Shown here piece after piece: positions 32,036 through 43,991 of a stretch of 44,133 nt of DNA; position 1 is the first letter of the stretch; every line of letters begins with the position of its first letter. Source of the stretch: Vulcanimicrobiota bacterium (GTDB lineage Bacteria > Vulcanimicrobiota > Vulcanimicrobiia > Vulcanimicrobiales > Vulcanimicrobiaceae); the NCBI GenBank assembly GCA_003158195.1, contig PMHP01000157.1:585-44717 (forward strand), written 5' to 3'. The notes under the pieces were generated by a model that ran no database searches, was not told the origin of the DNA, and worked only from the letters and a program-made list of their open reading frames with translations. A program made the position numbers and the translations under genes.

Positions 32036-32803
32036 CTGAATTTCGCGAGCGATCTGTTCATCGGAGGCGCCGCGTTCGTCGCGAGCGCAATCAACGCAGG
32101 CGCCGGCGGCGGCAGCTTCATCTCGTTCCCGGCGATCCTCGCGTCGGGCGTCGCGCCGATCCCCGCGAACGCGACCAACAACGTCGCGATGTGGCTCGGC
32201 TCGCTCGCCTCGACCGGCTCTTTCCGTTCGGAGATCGACGTCCCGCGAGGAACGCTCGTGCGCATGTTGGTGGCGAGTACGGGCGGCAGCATTGCCGGAG
32301 CAATCATCTTGCTGCGCACGCCGAACTCGACGTTCGCGGGGCTAATTCCGTTTCTCTTGCTCGCCGCAACGGCAATTTTCATCGCCGGCCCGGCGCTCAC
32401 GCGGGCCTCCCAGCACGCCGAGGTAACGCTGACCCCCGATTCGCCGGCCGGACTCGTGGCGCAAACGTGCATCGCAGTCTACGGTGGATTCTTCGGCGCC
32501 GCGGCGGGCATTCTGATGCTCGCGCTGCTCGGGGTTCTGGGGATGCACGATCTGCGCCGCGCGAACGCCTTCAAAGTTCTCTTGGCGACGACGATCAACG
32601 GGGTCGCCGTCGTCCCGTTTGTCCTCGCAAAGGTCATTGCGTGGGAACCGGCCGCATTCATGAGCACGGGGGCGATTGCCGGCGGATTTCTCGGGGCTCA
32701 CCTCGTCAAACGTCTCTCCTCGGAAACGGTACGCGCCTTCGTGATCGTCGTCGCGTGCACGATGACGCTGTATTTTTTCTGGCTGGACTACATTCGGAGG
32801 TAA
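32036..32803 (+). CDS. TauE/SafE family membrane permease, apparent CTG start
   Basis: A 255-residue membrane protein with about eight helices. The family opening (AINAGAGGGSFISFPAIL, then APIPANATNNVAMWLGS) is encoded from about 32066, upstream of the first canonical start (ATG 32189). The only plausible start is CTG at 32036, giving normal family length. The second half repeats the motif (TCIAVYGGFFGAAAGILMLA). Members export sulfite, sulfoacetate or other organic anions. It follows prk by 22 nt and may share its transcript. The start remains an inference. Confidence 0.78.
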   Translation: MNFASDLFIGGAAFVASAINAGAGGGSFISFPAILASGVAPIPANATNNVAMWLGSLASTGSFRSEIDVPRGTLVRMLVASTGGSIAGAIILLRTPNSTFAGLIPFLLLAATAIFIAGPALTRASQHAEVTLTPDSPAGLVAQTCIAVYGGFFGAAAGILMLALLGVLGMHDLRRANAFKVLLATTINGVAVVPFVLAKVIAWEPAAFMSTGAIAGGFLGAHLVKRLSSETVRAFVIVVACTMTLYFFWLDYIRR

Positions 32804-32825
32804 AGAAGCGCCGGCAAGGGACCCC

Positions 32826-33581
32826 TCACTCCCGGCGCTGCATCGCGTAGAACACGTATCCGAACGCGTTACCGTAACGGCGAACGATATCTATCTCCAT
32901 TTGCTGGTCGCCAAGAAACTGCAGCGCTGCCGGGTCTCGAGCGAACCGCTGCCGCAGCGCGGCGATCTTCTCCTCCAGCGGTGTCAGGTAATCCTCAAAC
33001 CATGCGTCGGCGGCAAGCACGAAGTCAGCGACGAGCCCCAAACCACAACGTTCGATCGTGGTGCGATTCTGCTCGATCGATGCCATGGCCGGGTAAGCTC
33101 GACCCCAGAACTCATGCGCGGCCCCGGGAGGTGCGTCGGTTAGCCACGTAAGTTCTGAAACGACAATGTAGCCGTTGGTACGAACGAGCGGACGCCACAG
33201 TCGCAGGCCGATCTCAAAGCCGATGATGTAAATCGACCCCTCAGCCCAAATCAGATCAAACGACTCGCGCTCGAAAGGGAGCGCATCCATGGAAACTTGC
33301 AAGGTGACGATTCGCTCGGCCAGACCTGCAGAACGTGCGCGGCTCTCCAGTTCATCGAGGTAAGGCCGGTGGGTATCGATCGCGGTGATCGTACCCTTTA
33401 GATTTCGGGCGAGCGCAATTGTCTGAGCTCCCGGGCCGCATCCAATGTCGAGAACTGCGCCGAACGCCGGAAGAGCGGGGAGGAGATGCAGTGCTCGCTC
33501 CGTTGCGGCGTCGTTTCCCGGGGCCTCCCGCGGCAGTCCCTGATGCAGATCGAAAAGGTTCACGGATGTATCACCCGTCAC
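32826..33581 (-). CDS. SAM-dependent methyltransferase, last gene of the SDR-queA operon
   Basis: A 251-residue class I methyltransferase. Motif I is VLDIGCGPGAQTIALA, followed by AIDTHRPYLDELE, MDALPFERESFDLIWAEGSI and GYIVVSELTWL. The N-terminal LFDLHQGLPREAPG segment is common in small bacterial methyltransferases of unknown substrate. GTG at 33581 is chosen because it overlaps the queA stop (GTGA), matching the ATGA overlap between the two genes before it. Length is normal. Confidence 0.87.
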   Translation of the reverse strand: MTGDTSVNLFDLHQGLPREAPGNDAATERALHLLPALPAFGAVLDIGCGPGAQTIALARNLKGTITAIDTHRPYLDELESRARSAGLAERIVTLQVSMDALPFERESFDLIWAEGSIYIIGFEIGLRLWRPLVRTNGYIVVSELTWLTDAPPGAAHEFWGRAYPAMASIEQNRTTIERCGLGLVADFVLAADAWFEDYLTPLEEKIAALRQRFARDPAALQFLGDQQMEIDIVRRYGNAFGYVFYAMQRRE

Positions 33582-34585
33582 ACAATAAGGTGAACGTCGC
33601 CGAACTCGTGCCAAAGGTAATCGCCGTCCAGCGCAACGCGGTACGCCCGATCGAGTGCCGCGGGTGGCGCGAATGCGGCGAGCATCTGGAGGTGACTTGC
33701 GCGCGGTTCATGGAAGCCGGTGAGGATACCGTCGACGGTGCGCAGGCCGCGCTCGGGCGTGACGACGAGGTCGGTCCAACCGTTCGACGCGACGACTTCG
33801 CCGCCCGCGGCCGCGCTCTCGAGCGCACGCACGACGGTCGTGCCGATCGCGATGACCCGGCGCCCTTCACGGCGTGCGGCGTTGACCGCGAGCGCAGTCG
33901 CAGGCGTTACGGCGAAAGGCTCGGCTTGCGGCGGCTCGTGCGCTTCCGGGCTCGAAACGCCGGCATGCAGGGTCACGCTTGCGATCCGTACGCCGCGGCG
34001 GCTCAACGCATCGAGCGTGCGGCGTGCGAACGGACGGCCGGCGGACGGCATCTCCGCGGAGCCGGGAGTGCGTGCGAAGATCGTCTGATAGTAGCCGATC
34101 GGATAGGGCGCATCGACGTACTTGTAGCGGATCGCCGAACCGTTGTGATGGAGGTACTCGACGATCGGTTCGGGGACGTCGATGCGCGCGTACCAAAGGC
34201 GTGGCGCGTCGTCGTCCAGGGGCGCGACCAACGTCGCGCTGCCCGAGTCGGGCAACACGAGCTGCTCGCCGGCGGCGGCCGGGCCGCGTGGCTCGACGAT
34301 CCACAGGGTACTCGCGACGCGCGACGAGAGGTGTAGCGCGAGCGGCCTGCCGTCGGCACGCGTCGCTTCGAGCGCGGCCGGGAGTGTTGCGGAGTCGTTG
34401 ACGACCAGCAGATCTCCCGGTTGCAGCAGCGACGGCAATTCGACGAAGAGGCGATGTTCGGCTGCGCCGGTACGTCTATCGCTTACCAGCATGCGCACGC
34501 CATCGCGAGGCAGGCCGCGCAACTCCGGCGGCCGCCGCGCTTCGAGATGCTCGGGCAGCTCGAAGCTGATGTCGAGTGCGGTCAT
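33578..34585 (-). CDS. queA: QueA-like S-adenosylmethionine:tRNA ribosyltransferase-isomerase
   Basis: A 335-residue protein. Family landmarks: LLVVNDSATLPAAL, AEMPSAGRPF (cf. AAPTAGLHF), VTLHAGVSSPE, GTTVVRALE and VDGILTGFHEPRASHLQMLA. QueA transfers the ribosyl part of SAM to preQ1-tRNA to make epoxyqueuosine. This copy diverges from classical QueA at several motifs (for example HAGVSSP for HVGLGTF) and no other queuosine gene is nearby, so a related reaction is possible. It overlaps both neighbours by 4 nt. Confidence 0.82.
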   Translation of the reverse strand: MTALDISFELPEHLEARRPPELRGLPRDGVRMLVSDRRTGAAEHRLFVELPSLLQPGDLLVVNDSATLPAALEATRADGRPLALHLSSRVASTLWIVEPRGPAAAGEQLVLPDSGSATLVAPLDDDAPRLWYARIDVPEPIVEYLHHNGSAIRYKYVDAPYPIGYYQTIFARTPGSAEMPSAGRPFARRTLDALSRRGVRIASVTLHAGVSSPEAHEPPQAEPFAVTPATALAVNAARREGRRVIAIGTTVVRALESAAAGGEVVASNGWTDLVVTPERGLRTVDGILTGFHEPRASHLQMLAAFAPPAALDRAYRVALDGDYLWHEFGDVHLIV

Positions 34586-35322
34586 GCGGGCGCCGTAACT
34601 GCCAGCAGGGACGGCAGTTCGATGCGCGCGTAGGCGTCGCGGTCGCTCGCGATCGCGCGCATCAGCGCGACGGCGACCTCCTCGGGCGAAGGCATCGCGG
34701 CGAAGTCCGCATCGGGCTCCGCGTCGCGGTGCATCTTCGTATCCATGCTGCCGGGATCGACGACGAGGATCGAGACACCAAAGCCATCGAGTTCAGCCGC
34801 AAGCGTTCGCGAAAAATGTTCCAGTGCTGCTTTGCTTGCGCCGTAGCCGCCCCAGCCGGGATAAGCGTTGACGGCCGCGTCCGAAGAGACGTTCACGATC
34901 GTCCCGCCGGAGCGCAGCAAGAGCGGCAGCGCATGCTGCATCAGGTGCAGCGGCGCGAAGGCGTTCGTCTCGAACAGCCGCTGAAATACCGCGGGCGAGA
35001 GATGCTCGAGCGGCGGAAGCGGCACCAGACCCAAGGTCGATGCGTTATTGACGAGCAGATCGAGCCGTCCAAAAGCGTCCGACGCGCGCGACACGAGCCG
35101 GTGAACGTGCTCGAGTTCCGTTACGTCGCCCGCAATCGCTTCGACTTGCGTGCGTTCGCGCAGCTCGCTCGCCGCCTCTTCCAGAGCCGCGGCGTCACGC
35201 GCGGTAATCACGAGGCGTAACCCTCGCGCGGCAAGCTGGCGCGCAACGGCCCGCCCAAAACCCTGCGACGCTCCGGTGATGAGGGCCACGTGCCCTGCCT
35301 CAAACCAACTGAACTCTTCCAT
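34582..35322 (-). CDS. Short-chain dehydrogenase, first gene of the queA operon
   Basis: A 246-residue classical SDR with ITGASQGFGRAVA, TARDAAALEEA (Arg, NADPH preference), NNASTLG, catalytic Ser in NVSSDA, YGASKAALEHFS (Tyr/Lys) and VVDPGSMDT. It is an NADPH-dependent oxidoreductase of unknown substrate. Its stop overlaps the queA start as ATGA. The fixed neighbourhood suggests a shared process with the QueA-like enzyme, possibly nucleoside or tRNA modification; that is inference. Confidence 0.88.
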   Translation of the reverse strand: MEEFSWFEAGHVALITGASQGFGRAVARQLAARGLRLVITARDAAALEEAASELRERTQVEAIAGDVTELEHVHRLVSRASDAFGRLDLLVNNASTLGLVPLPPLEHLSPAVFQRLFETNAFAPLHLMQHALPLLLRSGGTIVNVSSDAAVNAYPGWGGYGASKAALEHFSRTLAAELDGFGVSILVVDPGSMDTKMHRDAEPDADFAAMPSPEEVAVALMRAIASDRDAYARIELPSLLAVTAPA

Positions 35323-35378
35323 GCCGCAAGTGTAGTGCCGTAACGTCCGCGGCGAATCGCCCCTTCGGGCACGCGCGC

Positions 35379-35398
35379 CCCTGGCCGTTCGGCCAGGG
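35379..35398. terminator. Strong hairpin downstream of the GNAT gene
   Basis: CCCTGGCC-GTTC-GGCCAGGG, a perfect 8-bp stem with a 4-nt loop, 25 nt beyond the stop of the minus-strand GNAT gene and upstream of the SDR-queA operon. No U-tract follows, so the type of terminator is unclear. Confidence 0.5.
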
Positions 35399-35423
35399 CG
35401 TCGCTTGCTGCGGTGCGCAGCCG

Positions 35424-35900
35424 CTACGCCGTGGGCGCGGCCTCGAAGGTCAAAACATATCGAATGAAGTCGTCATGCGCGCAGAAATGGTCGTACACGC
35501 GCCGGGCACGATCGTTACTTTCACGCGTCATCCAATAGAGTCGCCCCCAATGCTGCGCGCGCCCGAGCCCAACCAGATGCTCCAGAATCGCACGACCGGC
35601 GCCGGTGCCGCGAGCTTCCGGCCGAACGAAGAGATCTTCAAGGTAGCACGCAGGCAGCTCGCTCCACGTGTACGGATGGACGATATAGTTCGCAAAGCCG
35701 GCGGCTTCGCCCGTCGACCCGCTCGTAGCCACGAGCCCGAATATGGAAGAATCCGCAGCGAGGATCCGTCTCCACGTTGCGTCGGTCACTGCGTCGGAAA
35801 CACGTGCCTCGTAAAAATCGCAATACCCCCGCCACATCTCGAGCCACGCATCTCGATCTTGCGAAATCGTTGGCCGCACGATATACCGGTCGTTACCCAA
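35424..35900 (-). CDS. GNAT family N-acetyltransferase
   Basis: A 158-residue acetyltransferase. Motif A (acetyl-CoA pyrophosphate loop) is VRPEARGTGAGRAIL, preceded by the beta-4 strand YLEDLF and followed by LYWMTRESNDRARRVYDHF (motif B). It transfers acetyl from acetyl-CoA to an amine on a small molecule or protein. TTG at 35900 immediately follows repeat element R4. The open frame extends 16 codons into the repeat, but that part is repeat sequence and probably not native. The strand YIVRPTISQDRDAW is a normal GNAT N-terminus. Confidence 0.82.
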   Translation of the reverse strand: MGNDRYIVRPTISQDRDAWLEMWRGYCDFYEARVSDAVTDATWRRILAADSSIFGLVATSGSTGEAAGFANYIVHPYTWSELPACYLEDLFVRPEARGTGAGRAILEHLVGLGRAQHWGRLYWMTRESNDRARRVYDHFCAHDDFIRYVLTFEAAPTA

Positions 35901-35903
35901 AAT

Positions 35904-35996
35904 TGTCAGCCTGAGCGCTGCGCCGAAGGCGCGAAGTCGAAGGGCCAACGGAGTATGGCCACATCCCGTCGGCGCTTCGACAAGCTCAGCGTGACA
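35904..35996. repeat. Dispersed MITE/REP-like element, copy R4 (full length)
   Basis: About 93 bp with ends TGTCAGCCTGAGC and GCTCAGCGTGACA, in the opposite orientation to R2 and R3. The internal hairpin is GCGCC-TTC-GGCGC, the same pairing with a changed loop. It directly abuts the GNAT gene start. Confidence 0.7.
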
Positions 35997-36209
35997 CGAG
36001 CAACTACAATGCGAAGCGATCGCACAGTATCAGCCATGCTGCGAATCTGACACACTTTCCGGCCCTCGTAAAGTGCCACTTTTTCTCTTAGGCAGGGGTC
36101 CACTCTGACGCCGCGTACTGCGATATAAGACGGACGTGCGCGGCATTCATATCATTCGAAGATCCAGGACGCCGCTGCATCGCCAGTCGGAATCATAGGG
36201 AGAACCTGC

Positions 36210-36899
36210 GTGGCCTGCTCGGTTATAGAGCTCAGACAATATACGCTTCGTCCAGGTCGACGGGACGTCTTGATCGACCTCTTCGATCGCGAGTTCATCG
36301 AATCTCAAGAAGACCTCGGCATGCGAGTCATCGGACAGTTTCGCGTGCTCGACGAGCCCGATCAGTTCTTCTGGGTGCGCGGCTTCACCGACATGCAAGA
36401 ACGCGACGCGAGTTTGCGCGCATTCTACGGGGGACCCGTTTGGCGGGAGCACCGGGACGTCGCAAATGCGACCATGGTCGATTCGGACAACGTCCTGTTG
36501 TTGCGCCCGTCGCGACCAGATTCGGGCTTTGATCTCGTGCAGACCGAACGACCGCCGCTTGGGCGCGATAGAGCGAGGGACCGGCTCTTCGTTGCGAACA
36601 TTTTCTACTTCCGCGAGCCGATCGAGCACAAGTTCGCCGAACATTTTGAGCGAGTGATGCTGCCGGAGATCCTCCGTACGGGCATGGACGTACGGGCGTA
36701 TTTCGTATCCGAGCACAGTGCCAACACCTTCCCTGCGCTGCCGGTTCGCGAGGACGAAAACGCGTTCGTGTGGTTTGGTGTCTTTTCCAGCGGCGCTGCG
36801 TATAAGGATCAGCCTGTCGCCGGCCCGTTCGCCGACGCTATGCGCCGGCCACCCGAAATCAAACGATTGGCGCCGACGTCACGCTCGCTGCTGCGCTAA
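36210..36899 (+). CDS. NIPSNAP family protein
   Basis: A 229-residue protein with two dimeric alpha-beta-barrel repeats. The N-terminal repeat starts with VIELRQYTLRPGRRDVLIDL and contains FFWVRGFTDMQERDASLRAF and YGGPVWREH, a clear NIPSNAP signature. The second half repeats the pattern less clearly (ENAFVWFGVF). The molecular role is poorly defined, with proposed links to monooxygenase-like folds. GTG at 36210 has GGGAGA 6 nt upstream. It is transcribed alone and convergent with the response regulator gene, 10 nt away. Confidence 0.87.
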   Translation: MACSVIELRQYTLRPGRRDVLIDLFDREFIESQEDLGMRVIGQFRVLDEPDQFFWVRGFTDMQERDASLRAFYGGPVWREHRDVANATMVDSDNVLLLRPSRPDSGFDLVQTERPPLGRDRARDRLFVANIFYFREPIEHKFAEHFERVMLPEILRTGMDVRAYFVSEHSANTFPALPVREDENAFVWFGVFSSGAAYKDQPVAGPFADAMRRPPEIKRLAPTSRSLLR

Positions 36900-36909
36900 A
36901 CGGCAGAAC

Positions 36910-37527
36910 TTACAGGAGGCCGCGTTGTTGGGCGATTGCGACGGCTTGGGCGCGGTTGCCGGCGCCTAAGCGCGCGAGGATCTCGCCGACGTGGAACTTG
37001 ACGGTGCGCTCGGCGATGCCGAGCCGCGCCGCGATGGCTTTGTTTGCGAGGCCGTCGGCGAGCAGTTTGAGGATCTCGCGCTCGCGTTCGGTAATCCGCT
37101 GGTGGCGCGGCGCGCGCATCGCTTCGAGGGCTTGCGCTGCAATCGTCGCATCCATGCGCGCACGGCCTGCGGCGACGGCACGCACCGTTTCGAGCAACTC
37201 GTCGCTTGCGGTGCCCTTGATGACGTACGAGTCGGCGCCGCGCGAGAGTGCCGTGCCGACGCGCTCTTCGCCCGCGTACGCCGAGAAAATCACGACGCGC
37301 GTACCCGGCGACACCGTCTTGATCTTGCCGATCGCTTCGAGCCCGCTTTGGTCGGGCAATTCCAAATCGAGCAGAAGCACGTCGGGGCGCTCCCGTTCGG
37401 CCAGCGCGATCCCCTCGCCCGCCGTGCCGGCCGCTCCGACGACCTGAACGTCGCCGGCATCGCCGAGGGTCGCGACGATGCCGTCCCGCACGATCGGGTG
37501 GTCGTCGACGACCGCAACGCGGATCAT
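36910..37527 (-). CDS. NarL/LuxR-type response regulator, third gene of the hemQ operon
   Basis: A 205-residue two-component regulator. Receiver domain: acidic pair D8/D9 in VVDDHP, phosphoacceptor D54 in LLLDLELPD, and conserved Lys in SYVIKGT. C-terminal GerE helix-turn-helix: ITEREREILKLLADGLANKA, then IAERTVKFHV and LARLG. Phosphorylation by the adjacent kinase would drive dimerisation and DNA binding. It overlaps the kinase stop by 4 nt (ATGA). Target genes are not evident here. Confidence 0.94.
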   Translation of the reverse strand: MIRVAVVDDHPIVRDGIVATLGDAGDVQVVGAAGTAGEGIALAERERPDVLLLDLELPDQSGLEAIGKIKTVSPGTRVVIFSAYAGEERVGTALSRGADSYVIKGTASDELLETVRAVAAGRARMDATIAAQALEAMRAPRHQRITEREREILKLLADGLANKAIAARLGIAERTVKFHVGEILARLGAGNRAQAVAIAQQRGLL

Positions 37528-38663
37528 GGCGTGACCGGCACGCGCACGTCGACGCGCGTCCCGCCGCCGGGCCGCGCCCCGATCGTAAACGTCCCGCCGA
37601 GCGCCGCCGCACGCTCTTGCATGCCGACGATCCCGTAGCGACCGTCGCCCGCGCCCGGCGCGATGCCGTCGCCGTCGTCGTCGATCGTCAGCGCTACCGC
37701 CGCGCCGTCGCCGCCGAGCGACAGCTCGACCCGTCGCGCCCCCGCGTGGCGGCGAACGTTGGTGAGCGCCTCCGACGCAATTCGGAACAGCGCAACCTCG
37801 GCCGCGTGGGCGAGCGTCGCCGGCGAACGATCGTGGAAGGTCGCGATGATCCCCGTTTCGGAGGTGAAGCCGCGTGCCAGCGCTCCCAGCGCGCTCGCGA
37901 GCGGTTTCCCGCCAAGCGGATCGGAGCGCAAGGTCAGCACCGATTCGCGCGCGTCGCCGAGCGCTTCGCGCGTCACCGCGAGCGCCTTTTCGATGCGCGC
38001 GCGCGCTTCGTCGTCCCCCTCGCGCAACTGCCGCAGGGCCCCTTCAAGCTGTAGTGCGATCGCGGTCAGATCTTGCGCGAGCGTATCGTGGATGTCGCGC
38101 GCGAGTCGCGTGCGTTCCTCGGTCCGCGCTAGCCGTGCCGCGCTTTCGCTCAAGTGCGCGCGATCGACGGCCATCCCGACGTGGGCGCCGAGCGCCGAAA
38201 GCAAATGCAGGTCGGGCTCGTCGAGCGCGCGCCAATGCGGGCCGCTGAGGTTCATGATTCCGAGCAGGCGCGCACCGACACGCAGGCCGACGCTCGCATG
38301 ATACTTCATGCCGGCGGTGAGATCGCTCTCGTCCGTGTTCGCCGCCTTGCGCAGCCGGCTGCACTCGATGACGTCGACGTTCTGCGAAACGAAGTCGCCG
38401 TCGAGAAACGATTCGAAGCACCAGCAGTTGCTGCCGGTCATCTGCACCGGCTCTTGCAAGTACGGCGGGAGCTGCCACGACGCGGCGAGATAGAAACGCC
38501 GCGTCTCCTCGTCGAAGAGCCAAATCCACCCCGAGCCAAGGCCGAGGAACCGCGTGACGATCTCGAGCGTACGCTCGAGCGCGAGCGGCGCATTCCCGGC
38601 ATCGCCTAAAGCTTCGGCGACTGCCTCGAAGACGAGAACGTCGCGCCGGCTCGCATCCGTCAG
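37524..38663 (-). CDS. Soluble histidine kinase with Cys-containing GAF domain, apparent CTG start
   Basis: A 379-residue NarX/DegS-type kinase with no membrane segment. The GAF domain (about 15-170) holds C80 and C82 in NCWCFESF and C101 in ECSRL, possible metal, heme or redox ligands. HisKA_3 has H192 in RDIHDTLAQDL. HATPase_c shows N-box SEALTNVRRHA and G-boxes DDDGDGI and RYGIVGMQERA. No ATG, GTG or TTG lies near the domain start. CTG at 38663 overlaps the hemQ stop as CTGA, mirroring the ATGA overlap with the regulator. An ATG at 38873 would bury 70 codons in hemQ. Confidence 0.86.
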   Translation of the reverse strand: MTDASRRDVLVFEAVAEALGDAGNAPLALERTLEIVTRFLGLGSGWIWLFDEETRRFYLAASWQLPPYLQEPVQMTGSNCWCFESFLDGDFVSQNVDVIECSRLRKAANTDESDLTAGMKYHASVGLRVGARLLGIMNLSGPHWRALDEPDLHLLSALGAHVGMAVDRAHLSESAARLARTEERTRLARDIHDTLAQDLTAIALQLEGALRQLREGDDEARARIEKALAVTREALGDARESVLTLRSDPLGGKPLASALGALARGFTSETGIIATFHDRSPATLAHAAEVALFRIASEALTNVRRHAGARRVELSLGGDGAAVALTIDDDGDGIAPGAGDGRYGIVGMQERAAALGGTFTIGARPGGGTRVDVRVPVTP

Positions 38664-39529
38664 CGCAGCACCGCGGGCTCGGGTGCCGTCAGCAACTGCG
38701 CGGACGCATCGCCTTCGAGGAAATGCGGCAGCTCGGCAAGCGAAAACTGCAAGCCGGTATAGAACGGCCCGAACGCCGCGTAGCGCGCACTCGATTCGTC
38801 GAAGCGCATCTCGTAGATCAGTTTCTTGAAGACGAGCGGGTCGTCGGCGTAGAGATCGACGCCCCACTCCCAATCGTCGAAGCCGATCGAGCCCGAGATG
38901 ACTTGCGTGACGAGGCCGTGGAACGAGCGGCCGATCTTGCCATGCTCGACCATCAACCGGGCTCGCTCCTCATACGGGAGCTGATACCAATTGAGCGCCT
39001 CGCCGCGCTTCTTGTCCATCGGATAGAAACAGACGTAGCGCCGCTGCGGCACCTTCGCCCACAGCCGGGCCGCGTTGCGCGGCTGATTCGCCTGCTCGGC
39101 GATCGCCGCGTCGAATGCTTCGATCCATTCCGGCGAGTGCGGCTTGAGCCCGCGATCGCGGAGTTCCGCGTGAATCCGGCCGCTGGCCTCGTAAAGTCCC
39201 AGTTCGAGGACGGACACGTACGACGCATGCGGCTCGAGATAATCCCGAAGAGCGCACTTATCGAAACCGGTCTGCACGGCCCCGAGGTCGTCGAAACGTT
39301 TTGCGTAGTGCGTGAGCATCAGATCGCTCTTGTGGCCGAGCAGTTGCGCGACCGAAACGTCACCCTCCGCCGATGCTGCAAGCGGCGCGAGAAACTCTTG
39401 GGCTTCGCGCGCGACCGCGGCGCGCCGCTCGGGCTGGAGGGCGTCAAACCGGCGCCGCTCGAAGCGGAACATACGGTGCAGGATCGCCCAGCTGTCGAGC
39501 GTCTCGGGAACATCGGGGTGACGCATCAT
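38660..39529 (-). CDS. hemQ: HemQ coproheme decarboxylase / chlorite dismutase-family protein
   Basis: A 289-residue protein. Residues from about 170 carry the family core: YVCFYPMDKKRGEALNWYQL with the catalytic-type Tyr, LMVEHGKIGRSF with the heme-ligand His, ISGSIGFDDWEWGVDL and LIYEMRFDESSARYAAFGPF. HemQ decarboxylates coproheme III to heme b, the last step of the coproporphyrin-dependent pathway. The match is much closer to HemQ than to true chlorite dismutase. The start is ATG 39529 or 39526. It is first in an operon with a kinase and regulator, joined by 4-nt overlaps. Confidence 0.88.
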   Translation of the reverse strand: MMRHPDVPETLDSWAILHRMFRFERRRFDALQPERRAAVAREAQEFLAPLAASAEGDVSVAQLLGHKSDLMLTHYAKRFDDLGAVQTGFDKCALRDYLEPHASYVSVLELGLYEASGRIHAELRDRGLKPHSPEWIEAFDAAIAEQANQPRNAARLWAKVPQRRYVCFYPMDKKRGEALNWYQLPYEERARLMVEHGKIGRSFHGLVTQVISGSIGFDDWEWGVDLYADDPLVFKKLIYEMRFDESSARYAAFGPFYTGLQFSLAELPHFLEGDASAQLLTAPEPAVLR

Positions 39530-39733
39530 CGCCAAGTTCGACGAACGGGCGGCCGAACCGTTCCCCGCATCGGGATCGATCTGAAAATTTCGTGCTGCCT
39601 GCCGCCTTCGAAGGCCTCACACAGCGAAACCTCCTCGCGGCAGCCGTCGTTCGCCGACAAGGCTTCCATGAAGCCGAGGGTAAATTCGCGTGGAATCTCT
39701 TACGGCGAAGTTGCCTCGGGGAGGTCAAAGCCC

Positions 39734-41023
39734 ATGCGTTCAAGTGGCTTGTTGCTAGCCTGCATATGTCTTGCCGCATGCTCCGGGTCGGGACCGACGC
39801 TCACGCCGCCGCCAGTCATTGCGCGCGGGTCGCTGCAAAGCTACACCGAGGTCGGCGTACTGACGACAACGCAGTTGGCGGCTGCTCCCGACGCGCCATT
39901 TATCACGCCGTTTGGCGGAGCGCCGCAATGCAGCGTGGCGGTGTACCGAGTGAAATACACGACGGTCGGCGTGAGAGGGGCGCCCGCGAACGCCAGTGCC
40001 GGCGTCTTCATTCCCCAGTCGGGCTGCGCCGGTCCCTATCCGCTGCTGGGCTTCGGACAAGGCACAAACCTTTTCAAGCTGCCGCCGATCAACAGCACAA
40101 TACCGGACGAGCAAACCTTGGATCTGGCGCTCGTGTACGGCAGCCAAGGCTACGTGGCGGCCGCCACCGATTATCTCGGGCTCGGCCTTTCAGCATATTC
40201 CTATCACCCGTACCTTCAGGCACAAACCGAAGCGAGTGCGGTGGTCGATTCAATGCGCGCGGCGCGCAATCTCGCGAAGGTATTGGGGGTTTCGCTATCG
40301 GGTCAGGTGATGCTCGCAGGCGCCTCTCAAGGCGGTCACACCGCGATGGCCGCGCAGCGCGAGATCGAAGCGCACAACGCGTCGGAATTTCAGCTGGCCG
40401 GCGACGCGGCAACCAGCGGCCCGTATGACTTGCTGAGCAGCGTGAACTTCGTTATCGACACGCAAAATCCGGCCGGCCCGGGGCTCCTGGCGTACCTTTT
40501 GACCGGCTTCCAAAACACGTACGGCAACCTTTACGGGAGCGGTGGCGCGACCACCGTTTTTCAAGCCCCATATGCGAGCACTATCGATACGCTGCTGCCG
40601 TTGCCTACCGCGTCGCAGGCCCCGGAACTTGCGACGGACTTGCCGGCGGAAACCACGTCGCTGCTGCAGCCCGCCTTTCTGACGTCGCTTGGCGTTTCAT
40701 CATCGCCGGTTGATTTCGATATTGCGGAGAACTCGCTCTTAGGCGGCTGGAAGCCTGTTGCTCCCGTCTATCTCTGTGGCGCGCACATCGACCCGCTCGT
40801 GACCTACACGAACGCCACCGAAGCGCAGGCCTATTTTACGGGGCTCGGCGCGACCTCGACAATCGTCGACGACAGCTCGTACGTGCCTTCGTCGTTTACC
40901 GGCAACCTTATTCACGTTGCTGATTGCATCATCTGCGAAGCGCTCAGCCGCGCGAACTTCTTGGACACGCTGAAAGCCGACTGGTCATCGCGTCGGTCGC
41001 TCCGGGCGCAAGCAGCGCGCTAG
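39734..41023 (+). CDS. Secreted lipase-like alpha/beta hydrolase lipoprotein
   Basis: A 429-residue protein. The signal peptide ends in a lipobox (LACICLAAC, Cys lipidated) and a Ser/Gly/Pro linker follows. The hydrolase domain contains YPLLGFGQGTN, GYVAAATDYLGLG and nucleophile motif LAGASQGGHTAMAAQ. Asp (CGAHIDPLV) and a late His (NLIHVAD) could complete a triad. It resembles fungal/bacterial secretory lipases (LIP family). GGGGAGG lies 8 nt before the ATG. The frame is open far upstream but that part is a shadow of hemQ. The ROK kinase gene follows after 10 nt. Confidence 0.82.
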   Translation: MRSSGLLLACICLAACSGSGPTLTPPPVIARGSLQSYTEVGVLTTTQLAAAPDAPFITPFGGAPQCSVAVYRVKYTTVGVRGAPANASAGVFIPQSGCAGPYPLLGFGQGTNLFKLPPINSTIPDEQTLDLALVYGSQGYVAAATDYLGLGLSAYSYHPYLQAQTEASAVVDSMRAARNLAKVLGVSLSGQVMLAGASQGGHTAMAAQREIEAHNASEFQLAGDAATSGPYDLLSSVNFVIDTQNPAGPGLLAYLLTGFQNTYGNLYGSGGATTVFQAPYASTIDTLLPLPTASQAPELATDLPAETTSLLQPAFLTSLGVSSSPVDFDIAENSLLGGWKPVAPVYLCGAHIDPLVTYTNATEAQAYFTGLGATSTIVDDSSYVPSSFTGNLIHVADCIICEALSRANFLDTLKADWSSRRSLRAQAAR

Positions 41024-41033
41024 CTCGACGGCG

Positions 41034-41966
41034 CTGCCTCACGCGGCCAAACTCAGAAACATCGGGATCGACCTCGGCGGCACGAAGATCGAGATCGTCG
41101 TACTCGACGCCGAGGGCGCCGAACGCGTGCGCCGGCGCATTCCAACGCCGGCCGGCGATTACGCAGCGACGATTGCGGCCGTTGCAAGCCTCGTCGCCGA
41201 CACCGAACGCGAGATCGGAGCGGTGTGCCCGGTCGGGATCGGTGCGCCGGGCGCGATCTCACCGCTCACCGGCCTCGTAAAGAATGCCAACAGCACCGTT
41301 TTGATCGGCCGCCCGCTTCGCGACGATCTCGCACGCGCGCTCGGCCGGCCGATCCGGATCGCTAACGACGCCGATTGCCTCGGGCTGTCGGAGGCCGCCG
41401 ACGGCGCGGGCGCGGGCGCACGGATCGTCTTCGCCGCGATTCTTGGAACCGGCGTCGGCGGCGGTATTGTCGTCGACGGCGCGCTCGTCACCGGCCCAAA
41501 TGCGATCGGAGGCGAGTGGGGCCACAATCCGCTGCCATGGCCGAGCCCGAGCGAGTTGCCCGGCCCCCGGTGTTATTGCGGTAAATCCGGCTGCATCGAG
41601 ACGTGGCTCTCCGGTCCGGGCTTCACGCGCGACGCGTCATCCGGCCGCGCGGAGGCTTACGCCGATGCGAAGGCCGCGATTGCGGCCGCCGGCGCCGGCG
41701 ATGCGCACGTAGTTGCTGCGCTCGACCGCTACGTCGACCGGCTCGCGCGCGGGCTAGCCACGATCGTAAACGTCGTCGATCCGCACGTCGTTGTCGTCGG
41801 CGGAGGAATGTCGAACGTTCCCAACCTCATCGAGAGCGTCGCCTCAGCGCTCGCGAACTACGCGTTCAGCGACGCGATCGCAACGCGCATCATGCGCGCC
41901 GCGCATGGCGATTCAAGCGGCGTCCGCGGCGCGGCGCGGCTGTGGCCCTTCGACTGCGCTCGCTGA
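41034..41966 (+). CDS. ROK family sugar kinase (glucokinase-like), apparent CTG start
   Basis: A 310-residue kinase. The ATP phosphate-binding motif GIDLGGTKIEIVVLD begins near residue 11, upstream of the first canonical start (GTG 41127). CTG at 41034 restores a normal ROK length. Further landmarks: IANDADCLGLSEA (catalytic Asp), GTGVGGGIV, and zinc ligands GGEWGHNP with CYCGKSGCIE. ROK kinases phosphorylate glucose, fructose or N-acetylhexosamines. The last residues (WPFDCAR) are encoded by repeat copy R5. No sugar transporter is adjacent. Confidence 0.88.
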   Translation: MPHAAKLRNIGIDLGGTKIEIVVLDAEGAERVRRRIPTPAGDYAATIAAVASLVADTEREIGAVCPVGIGAPGAISPLTGLVKNANSTVLIGRPLRDDLARALGRPIRIANDADCLGLSEAADGAGAGARIVFAAILGTGVGGGIVVDGALVTGPNAIGGEWGHNPLPWPSPSELPGPRCYCGKSGCIETWLSGPGFTRDASSGRAEAYADAKAAIAAAGAGDAHVVAALDRYVDRLARGLATIVNVVDPHVVVVGGGMSNVPNLIESVASALANYAFSDAIATRIMRAAHGDSSGVRGAARLWPFDCAR

Positions 41967-41998
41967 GCGCCGCTCAGCGAGCTTCGCTCAGGGTGACA
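41946..41998. repeat. Dispersed repeat, partial copy R5 with long hairpin between convergent genes
   Basis: Only the right-hand unit of the element is present (CCCTTCGACTGCG to GCTCAGGGTGACA). It carries an enlarged hairpin: GCTCGCTGAGC (41958-41968) pairs perfectly with GCTCAGCGAGC (41972-41982) across a 3-nt loop. It contains the stop codons of both convergent genes and could act as a bidirectional terminator. Confidence 0.65.
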
Positions 41999-42951
41999 CC
42001 TGCAACGGCGGCGAGGAGGGCGGCCGGATCGTTGCGGTACCGCTCGCGGGCCGACGGGTCGCGCGCGACGAGTTCGGTGAGTTGTGTGAAGACGGCGTTG
42101 ACCGGCGTTGCGACCCCGGCGCGCGCACCGGCGGCAGCCACGGCGCCGTTGAGCACGCCGACTTCGGTGAGGCCGCGGCCGGCGCGCACATCGAGCAGCA
42201 GCGACGGCGGCTTGTGACCGCGCGCCCCGGCGATGCGATTGGCGAGCAACCTCTCGGCAAGCGGCCGCGGCAAGGTGGCGACGGCTTGCAGCGCCCGCAG
42301 CGGGTAACGCGGCAGATCGACCGCTCGCAAATCCAGCGCCGCCATCACCGCGCGCGTCTCGCGCATCGCGTCGATCTCGAGGCCGAAGGGACCGTCGAGT
42401 TTCACGAGCCGCGCCGGAAGGATGTCCAAGATCGCGCATGACGCATTCGCGACGACGTTGAGCGCGAGTTTCGACCATTTGAGCGCACGATAGTCCGAAA
42501 CCACCTTAAGCGGGATCGGCGTGCGCCCCAACGCGGCGAGCAACCAGTTGTGCGCGACACCGCCGACCGGCGCAAGCGCGAGGCCGCCGCGGTTAGCGGC
42601 GACGATCGTTCCGTCGGGGCGGCGTTCGAGCGGCACCGTCAGCGCGCCGGCGACGATCCGGTCTGCACCAAACGCACCCGCCAACCGCTCTTCGTTGCCG
42701 ACGCCGTTTTGCGGCGTGAGCAAGGTCGCGTCGGAGCCCGCCGGCAACGCGCGCCGCAGCGTTTCGATCGCTCCGTCCGTATCGTAGGACTTTACCGCGA
42801 TGATTGCGAGATCGGCGGCAACCTCGCGAACGTCCTCGATGCGTCGCGGTGCGTAGTGCACCTCACAGCCGGCTGCTTGAAGGGCATTGCCGAGGTACGT
42901 TCCGACGGCGCCCGCGCCGACGACGTAAACAACGATCGCCGGTCGCCTCAG
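41974..42951 (-). CDS. panE: 2-dehydropantoate 2-reductase (ApbA/PanE), apparent CTG start
   Basis: A 325-residue NADPH-dependent ketopantoate reductase of pantothenate synthesis. The Rossmann motif [15 protein letters not shown], essential for cofactor binding, lies upstream of the first canonical start (GTG 42861). CTG at 42951 overlaps the dut stop as CTGA and gives normal length. Other motifs: AVKSYDT (catalytic Lys region), [10 protein letters not shown] and [13 protein letters not shown]. It is last gene of nrdR-dut-panE. Its final residues (VTLSEAR) are encoded in repeat R5. Paralogues with other 2-oxo substrates exist. Confidence 0.88.
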
Positions 42952-43388
42952 CCGCCCGTGCTGCCGAAGCCGCCCACCGAGCGCGCGGTCGTCTCGAGCT
43001 CCTGCGTCTCGTCATACAGCGCGCGTGCGACCGGGGCCAGCACGAGTTGCGCGATCCGGTCGCCACGACGAACCGTATAAGGTTCGGTACCGAAGTTTAC
43101 CAGCACGACACCGACCGGGCCGCGGTAATCGGAATCGATCGTCCCCGGCGTGTTGAGCAGCGTGACCCCGGCGCGCAGCGCGAGCCCGCTGCGCGGGCGC
43201 ACTTGCATTTCATATCCGGCCGGAACCGCGAGCGAGAACCCCGCCGGGATGAGCGCGCGCGCCCCGGGCAAGAGCGTCAGCTCGTCACGCACGGCCGCGC
43301 AGACGTCGGCTCCGGCGGCGCCTTCGGTCATGTACGCGGGCAGCTCCAAGCCCACGCCTTCGGGCAAGCGCTTGATCGCGACGCGCAC
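42948..43388 (-). CDS. dut: dUTP diphosphatase
   Basis: A 146-residue trimeric dUTPase with all five motifs: [11 protein letters not shown] (1), RPRSGLA (2), [15 protein letters not shown] (3, catalytic Asp), [12 protein letters not shown] (4) and [11 protein letters not shown] (5, the Gly-rich C-terminal lid). It hydrolyses dUTP to dUMP, preventing uracil incorporation and supplying dTMP synthesis. GTG at 43388, 7 nt after the nrdR stop, fits best; TTG at 43406 is an alternative overlapping nrdR. Linkage to nrdR places it with dNTP supply. Confidence 0.95.
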
Positions 43389-43395
43389 GCCGCGC

Positions 43396-43839
43396 TCACT
43401 TGGCAAGCTCGGCCAACTCCGCTTGAAAGCTTCCGATGTCGTCGAACGAACGGTAGACGCTCGCGAACCGGATGTAGGCGACCTTGTCCAGCCGCTTTAG
43501 CGATTCCATCAGTTTCTCGCCGAGCATCGTCGTCGGCACCTCGTTCTCCCCGCGCGAGAAGAGCTCGCGCTCGAGTCCGGCCACGACCTCTTCCATCTGC
43601 GCGCCGGAAACCGGTCGCTTCTCGCACGCACGCTGCAATCCGGTCAGGACCTTCTCACGGTTGTATTGCTCGCGCCGGCCGTCTTTCTTGACGACGAACA
43701 GGCGCGGGGCTTCCATCCGCTCGTACGTCGTGAACCGGCTCTTGCAGTCGAGGCATTCCCGCCGGCGGCGCACGACACTCTCGTCGTCGCGAGAATCGAC
43801 GACGCGGGTCTCGCTCTTACGGCAGGTAGGACAGATCAG
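43396..43839 (-). CDS. nrdR: Transcriptional repressor NrdR, apparent CTG start
   Basis: A 147-residue repressor of ribonucleotide reductase genes. The zinc ribbon is CPTC (residues 3-6) with CLDC later; then [18 protein letters not shown] and an ATP-cone domain ([20 protein letters not shown]). NrdR binds ATP/dATP and represses nrd operons. The first Cys pair is encoded upstream of the first canonical start (GTG 43773). The only in-frame candidate after a TAG is CTG at 43839, with GGGAGG 10 nt upstream, giving the normal ~150-residue length. No nrd gene is in the window. Confidence 0.92.
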
Positions 43840-43933
43840 GTGCGGCTCGCCTCCCTAGGGTCGGGGCCGGTGCCGCCCCGATGCGCTCCCGGGAGATCGA
43901 GCCGGCACGGCGTCCCAATCGTTCCCAAGAAGC

Positions 43934-43954
43934 GGCCCCACTAGATATGGGGCC
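43934..43954 (-). other. Hairpin at the predicted 5' end of the nrdR transcript
   Basis: GGCCCCA (43934-43940) pairs perfectly with TGGGGCC (43948-43954) around a 7-nt loop. It starts 8 nt after the predicted -10, so the nrdR mRNA would begin with a stem-loop. It could instead be a weak terminator for the upstream DUF5679 gene. Confidence 0.4.
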
Positions 43955-43961
43955 TCTCCGA

Positions 43962-43991
43962 AGTATAAGCCACAACTCCTTCCGGGGGCAA
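43962..43991 (-). promoter_or_regulatory. Predicted promoter of the nrdR-dut-panE operon
   Basis: Minus-strand -35 TTGCCC (43991-43986) and -10 TATACT (43967-43962) with 18-bp spacing. The start would fall near 43955, leaving a leader of about 115 nt before the nrdR CTG. No NrdR-box pair was recognised. Confidence 0.45.

Follow-up and report, generated by a model that had tools for sequence, protein, structure and literature searches.

In Escherichia coli, the infC gene starts with AUU. The closest described systems are those of Staphylococcus aureus, in which infC has the near-cognate start AUA, and in which ccpN and cvfC1 are read from a conserved AUA and a conserved AUU, respectively, each with a strong Shine–Dalgarno (SD) sequence, the weak codon giving a reporter output of around 10% of that of AUG in poor medium (PMC13009471). 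CUG is seen as a start codon that bacteria scarcely use: it makes up 0.024% of bacterial initiation codons and gives 0.86% of the AUG output in E. coli (PMC11497404), and CTG was not enriched in a mycobacterial selection, even with an SD sequence (PMC4633059). At the level of gene arrangement, 4-nt ATGA and GTGA overlaps are known to couple adjacent genes by termination–reinitiation (PMC10666635). Our literature searches gave nothing on start codons in Eremiobacterota and nothing relevant on NrdR with a CTG start.

Here, we analyse a window (the whole stretch of DNA under study, 44,133 nucleotides) from a Vulcanimicrobiota genome, the family of which consists of soil bacteria that are for the most part uncultured. 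An earlier reading of the window, made from its letters and referred to below as the sequence-only reading, had proposed five CTG starts. The most striking point of the present analysis, which was absent from that reading, is that nrdR carries CTG at its start almost throughout the family.

Materials and methods

The window is part of contig C41 of a fragmented draft genome (4.03 Mb in 248 contigs, around 79% complete), which the relatives of its nrdR assign to Vulcanimicrobiota (Candidatus Eremiobacterota). The set of relatives consisted of around 75 further loci of this group taken around nrdR. Three loci named Rhodospirillales bacterium (L031–L033) have an nrdR that is 89–92% identical to that of the window and look like misnamed Vulcanimicrobiota. 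Gene calls covered 1.6 Mb from a single-contig relative, 0.8 Mb from the window genome and 1.1 Mb from the nrdR loci. The sequence-only reading had proposed aligning orthologues at the start codons and counting CTGA overlaps against chance, and both were carried out. An NTGA overlap was counted when its frame was correct and no standard start lay within 12 codons of it. Start-codon changes were placed on a 63-genome tree, for which NrdR and PanE were combined. A coding model retrained on genome G008 alone, with which the ATGA overlaps went down to 7%, most likely as a result of wrong-strand open reading frames, was discarded in favour of the counts given below.

The start codon of nrdR

All five CTG codons are found at the positions and in the frames that had been reported, and the proteins read from them are NrdR, PanE/ApbA, a ROK kinase, a GAF/HisKA_3 kinase and TauE. 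The nrdR coding sequence lies on the minus strand at 43396..43839, stop included, and its putative start codon, CTG at 43837..43839, occupies the M-x-CPxC position both in the orthologue column and in the TIGR00244 match, which begins at residue 2 of the window protein and position 2 of the profile. The reported GGGAGG is present on the same strand at 43850..43855, 10 nt before the CTG. Across 75 Vulcanimicrobiota loci, including the window genome, the start column reads CTG in 70, GTG in four and ATC in one (L053); outside the family the same column holds GTG in the sister family within the order, and in other families of the class it is ATG. The second position of nrdR is taken by ATC, ATT, ACC, ACT, CTC or AAC, so that CTG is the sole constant start candidate. 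Downstream, a standard start is first met 12–65 codons after the CTG, by which point the first CPxC pair has been passed, so that initiation there would remove the first pair of cysteines. When any codon conserved at a conservation jump was searched for, many internal columns were returned, and nrdR alone among the large clusters showed a non-standard start so strongly.

Such constancy might reflect drift on a low-expression gene, with CUG merely tolerated and without a regulatory role, and the independent appearance of CTG in panE, TauE and other genes, with no sign of a special role, would fit this explanation. However, on the same tree the start codon changed twice in nrdR and 21 times in panE, and of all the findings this contrast argues most strongly for selection having kept CTG in nrdR. 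Drift is also at odds with the SD-like motif that accompanies the codon in 78 of the 80 CTG copies of nrdR, against an SD motif at around 26% of inferred starts genome-wide, the motif list for nrdR being somewhat wider. We regard drift as possible but rather unlikely.

Upstream of nrdR, on the minus strand, the window contains an NrdR-box-like palindrome, GGCCCCATATCTAGTGGGGCC, at 43934..43954 and a −10-like TATACT at 43962..43967. The latter belongs to a TATAAT/TATACT motif that is found 20–130 nt upstream in 73 of the nrdR loci, and a palindrome of the NrdR-box type precedes nrdR in most members of the family. A second and weaker NrdR-box signal, seen at the level of the family (mean 7.5/16 versus around 4), lies 32 bp farther upstream, and 32 bp is the known spacing of tandem NrdR boxes (PMC2892513). 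From these motifs nrdR is probably autoregulated, which would fit a repressor that is held scarce.

The other four CTG codons

The panE/apbA gene, read from CTG, occupies 41974..42951 on the minus strand, and its candidate start, CTG at 42949..42951, forms a CTGA overlap with the dut stop (42951–42948). This CTG is five codons upstream of the start column of the orthologues, at which the window has ATC (42934..42936, minus strand) with GAGG 9 nt upstream. The dut–panE overlap is widespread in the family, being ATGA in 25 cases, GTGA in 24, CTGA in three and ATAA in one, and CTG occupies the panE start column itself in other members, in four scattered rows of the 63-genome tree. Because the overlap with dut is conserved, we lean towards CTG as the panE start of the window, with ATC a somewhat less favoured candidate and either of them possible.

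The window panE raises the question of whether near-cognate starts (ATC, ATA, ATT and CTG) may be tolerated generally in these bacteria, in which case panE would start at ATC and some of the CTG calls would be near misses. The ATC of nrdR at L053, an ATA at the conserved panE start column of L045 and the GAGG-preceded ATC of the window panE speak for such a tolerance; these are, however, single cases, and at conserved start columns no other non-standard codon comes near CTG in frequency. General tolerance of near-cognate codons is thus a doubtful explanation.

The sensor histidine kinase gene extends over 37524..38663 on the minus strand when read from CTG (38661..38663), which is found in the second of the two reported CTGA overlaps (38663–38660, with the upstream gene). 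In a comparison limited to five sequences with offsets of a few codons, locus L039 (from the genome of L292) shows the same CTGA overlap, L293 has CTG, and L294 and L295 have GTG nearby. The sequence-only reading had held that in all five genes an N-terminal motif is encoded upstream of every ATG, GTG or TTG. This is correct for four genes; the kinase has an in-frame TTG farther upstream, at 38873, which lies within the preceding gene in arginine-rich sequence that looks non-coding.

On the plus strand, the TauE/SafE-family permease gene occupies 32036..32803 when read from its CTG at 32036..32038. The three closest relatives have CTG, CTG and ATG at this column, and elsewhere CTG is found in L326, L331 and L347 and GTG, TTG or ATG in many others. 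Four further orthologues of the TauE family (L324, L327, L336 and L343) show no clear ATG, GTG or TTG at the start column, which reads ATC, ATA or another codon.

The ROK-family, fructokinase-like kinase (41034..41966, plus strand) is a gene with an unsettled start. The CTG proposed for it (41034..41036) is not supported by the orthologues: the aligned start position holds CTC (41052), six codons downstream, none of 11 orthologues has CTG at the proposed position, and most have ATG or GTG at the column that reads CTC in the window genome.

Orthology thus upholds CTG in nrdR, TauE and the kinase, does not uphold it in the ROK gene and allows CTG or ATC in panE. In panE, TauE and the kinase CTG alternates with ATG, GTG and TTG, and in nrdR it is itself conserved. 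Five such starts in 12 kb, which had been taken as typical of the lineage, are a local cluster and unrepresentative of the genome.

CTG starts across the family

In the gene calls, overlaps of the counted geometry numbered 110 of 367 for ATGA, 134 of 491 for GTGA, 21 of 168 for TTGA and 28 of 623 for CTGA, and the same geometry placed over TAA or TAG (NTAR) as a control within these genomes gave 14 of 1477. The excess of CTGA over this control is around fivefold (odds 4.9, p = 9e-7). Two high-GC control replicons, Sinorhizobium pSymB and the Methylorubrum AM1 megaplasmid, gave CTGA in 1 of 219 cases (p = 0.002). After subtraction of the background, CTG makes up around 8% of the NTGA overlap starts, about as many as TTG. 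By orthology in nrdR, TauE and the kinase, and family-wide in the CTGA overlaps, the CTG pattern is more than a product of chance.

An orthologue vote assigned ten starts to CTG, seven to TTG, 107 to GTG and 226 to ATG, which places CTG at around 3% of starts; limited to genes with no standard alternative within 15 codons it leaves four CTG starts, all of them panE, and the vote alone is weak. An EM start finder that considered all 61 codons placed CTG third in the single-contig genome in two runs, at 4.4–4.7%, and was dropped as an estimate of the CTG rate with noise of 2–7% from second-codon and composition effects. In comparisons with curated profiles, CTG-started fmt aligns from residue 2 to profile position 2 and a CztS-type kinase from 3 to 3, with a diglucosyl diacylglycerol synthase aligning from 3 to 5 and pyrF from 5 to 4. 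In the single-contig relative (L268:16636–17622), the CTG start of fmt, the product of which formylates the initiator tRNA, is part of a CTGA overlap.

The view that CTG starts are routine in the lineage is too strong, in that they concern a few per cent of genes, and the starts themselves are very probably real. Gene callers limited to ATG, GTG and TTG would miss them, as had been predicted, though in no more than some per cent of genes.

It is highly improbable that these starts stem from errors in sequencing or assembly, or from CTG codons that fall in frame by chance in GC-rich DNA. The window genome is a draft in many fragments, CTG makes up around 3% of codons and the ROK call resembles a chance hit, but the same nrdR column is found in around 70 genomes assembled separately, as well as in a single-contig genome of 3.5 Mb, which refutes this explanation for nrdR, and the CTGA overlaps exceed their in-genome control. 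Hardly any weight can be given to translation from an upstream in-frame ATG, GTG or TTG with CTG as a leucine codon in an N-terminal extension, since the standard starts that lie upstream in 36 of the 70 CTG copies of nrdR are not conserved, in the other 34 no such start separates the CTG from the upstream in-frame stop, the SD motif directly precedes the CTG, and leucine codons at this column are all CTG, a codon that elsewhere in nrdR accounts for 27% of those for leucine.

How CUG may be used

We consider it likely that CUG is a genuine, if minor and merely tolerated, start codon of this family and that selection maintains it in nrdR, probably so that a repressor stays scarce. Initiation would take place at the CUG and methionine would be inserted there, with the ordinary fMet-tRNA (anticodon CAU) decoding CUG as a fourth NUG codon with a mismatch at the first position. 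Either an SD sequence or, at a 4-nt stop–start overlap, the terminating ribosome would position initiation at the codon, and most CUG starts may be interchangeable variants of AUG, GUG and UUG at sites where the ribosome is placed anyway.

The initiator tRNA and IF3 gave no sign of an unusual initiation machinery. An initiator-type tRNA arm, GGGCTCATAACCC, is present in most of 61 genomes, including that of the window, with the usual CAU anticodon, the GGG/CCC stem and an anticodon arm of ordinary appearance. No initiator tRNA with a CAG anticodon was found in the 61 genomes, all pattern matches being the CAT version, and such a tRNA was rejected as the cause of CUG use. Loss of IF3 was likewise rejected, with IF3 found in 57 of the 61 genomes. 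Given the low published output of CUG, its strong use would need either a greater permissiveness of the lineage or a benefit from low output.

For nrdR we favour the latter. A single fixation of the CUG may have occurred at the base of the family or close to it, and the codon would have been held since, most likely to limit the NrdR repressor in a second tier of control below the transcriptional feedback by NrdR. The output of NrdR would then be lowered by the CUG, and selection would act on the level of NrdR. A broader version, in which initiation in the family has shifted so that CUG is comparable to UUG throughout the lineage and nrdR is locked to CUG as a translational set-point of the dNTP regulon, is put forward only tentatively.

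Comparison with known systems

The family provides a natural system for studying what limits initiation at CUG. In its genomes, some per cent of gene models have an incorrect 5′ end, and an nrdR called from ATG, GTG or TTG either lacks the first part of its zinc ribbon or carries a spurious extension.

The dut–panE and kinase overlaps share 4 nt in the same NTGA geometry as the overlaps known to couple genes (PMC10666635), with CTGA in place of ATGA or GTGA, and the genes here may be coupled in the same way. The sporadic CUG starts of other bacteria (PMC11497404) involve the same codon and the same first-position C–U mismatch with fMet-tRNA, whereas in this family CTG is about as frequent as TTG, and one gene has it fixed in around 70 genomes. 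As in infC, a near-cognate start is proposed to be held in nrdR for regulation; however, NrdR is not an initiation factor, so that, unlike in infC, start discrimination offers the codon of nrdR no way of closing a feedback loop. The nrdR start resembles the AUA of ccpN and the AUU of cvfC1 in that the non-canonical start is conserved and a strong SD sequence accompanies it, and differs from them in its codon, CUG, in its gene and in being found in a family of another phylum, where it is known from sequence. The closest precedent is ccpN, which, like nrdR, encodes a transcriptional repressor, and in which the AUA start is accompanied by an extended SD sequence (PMC13009471).
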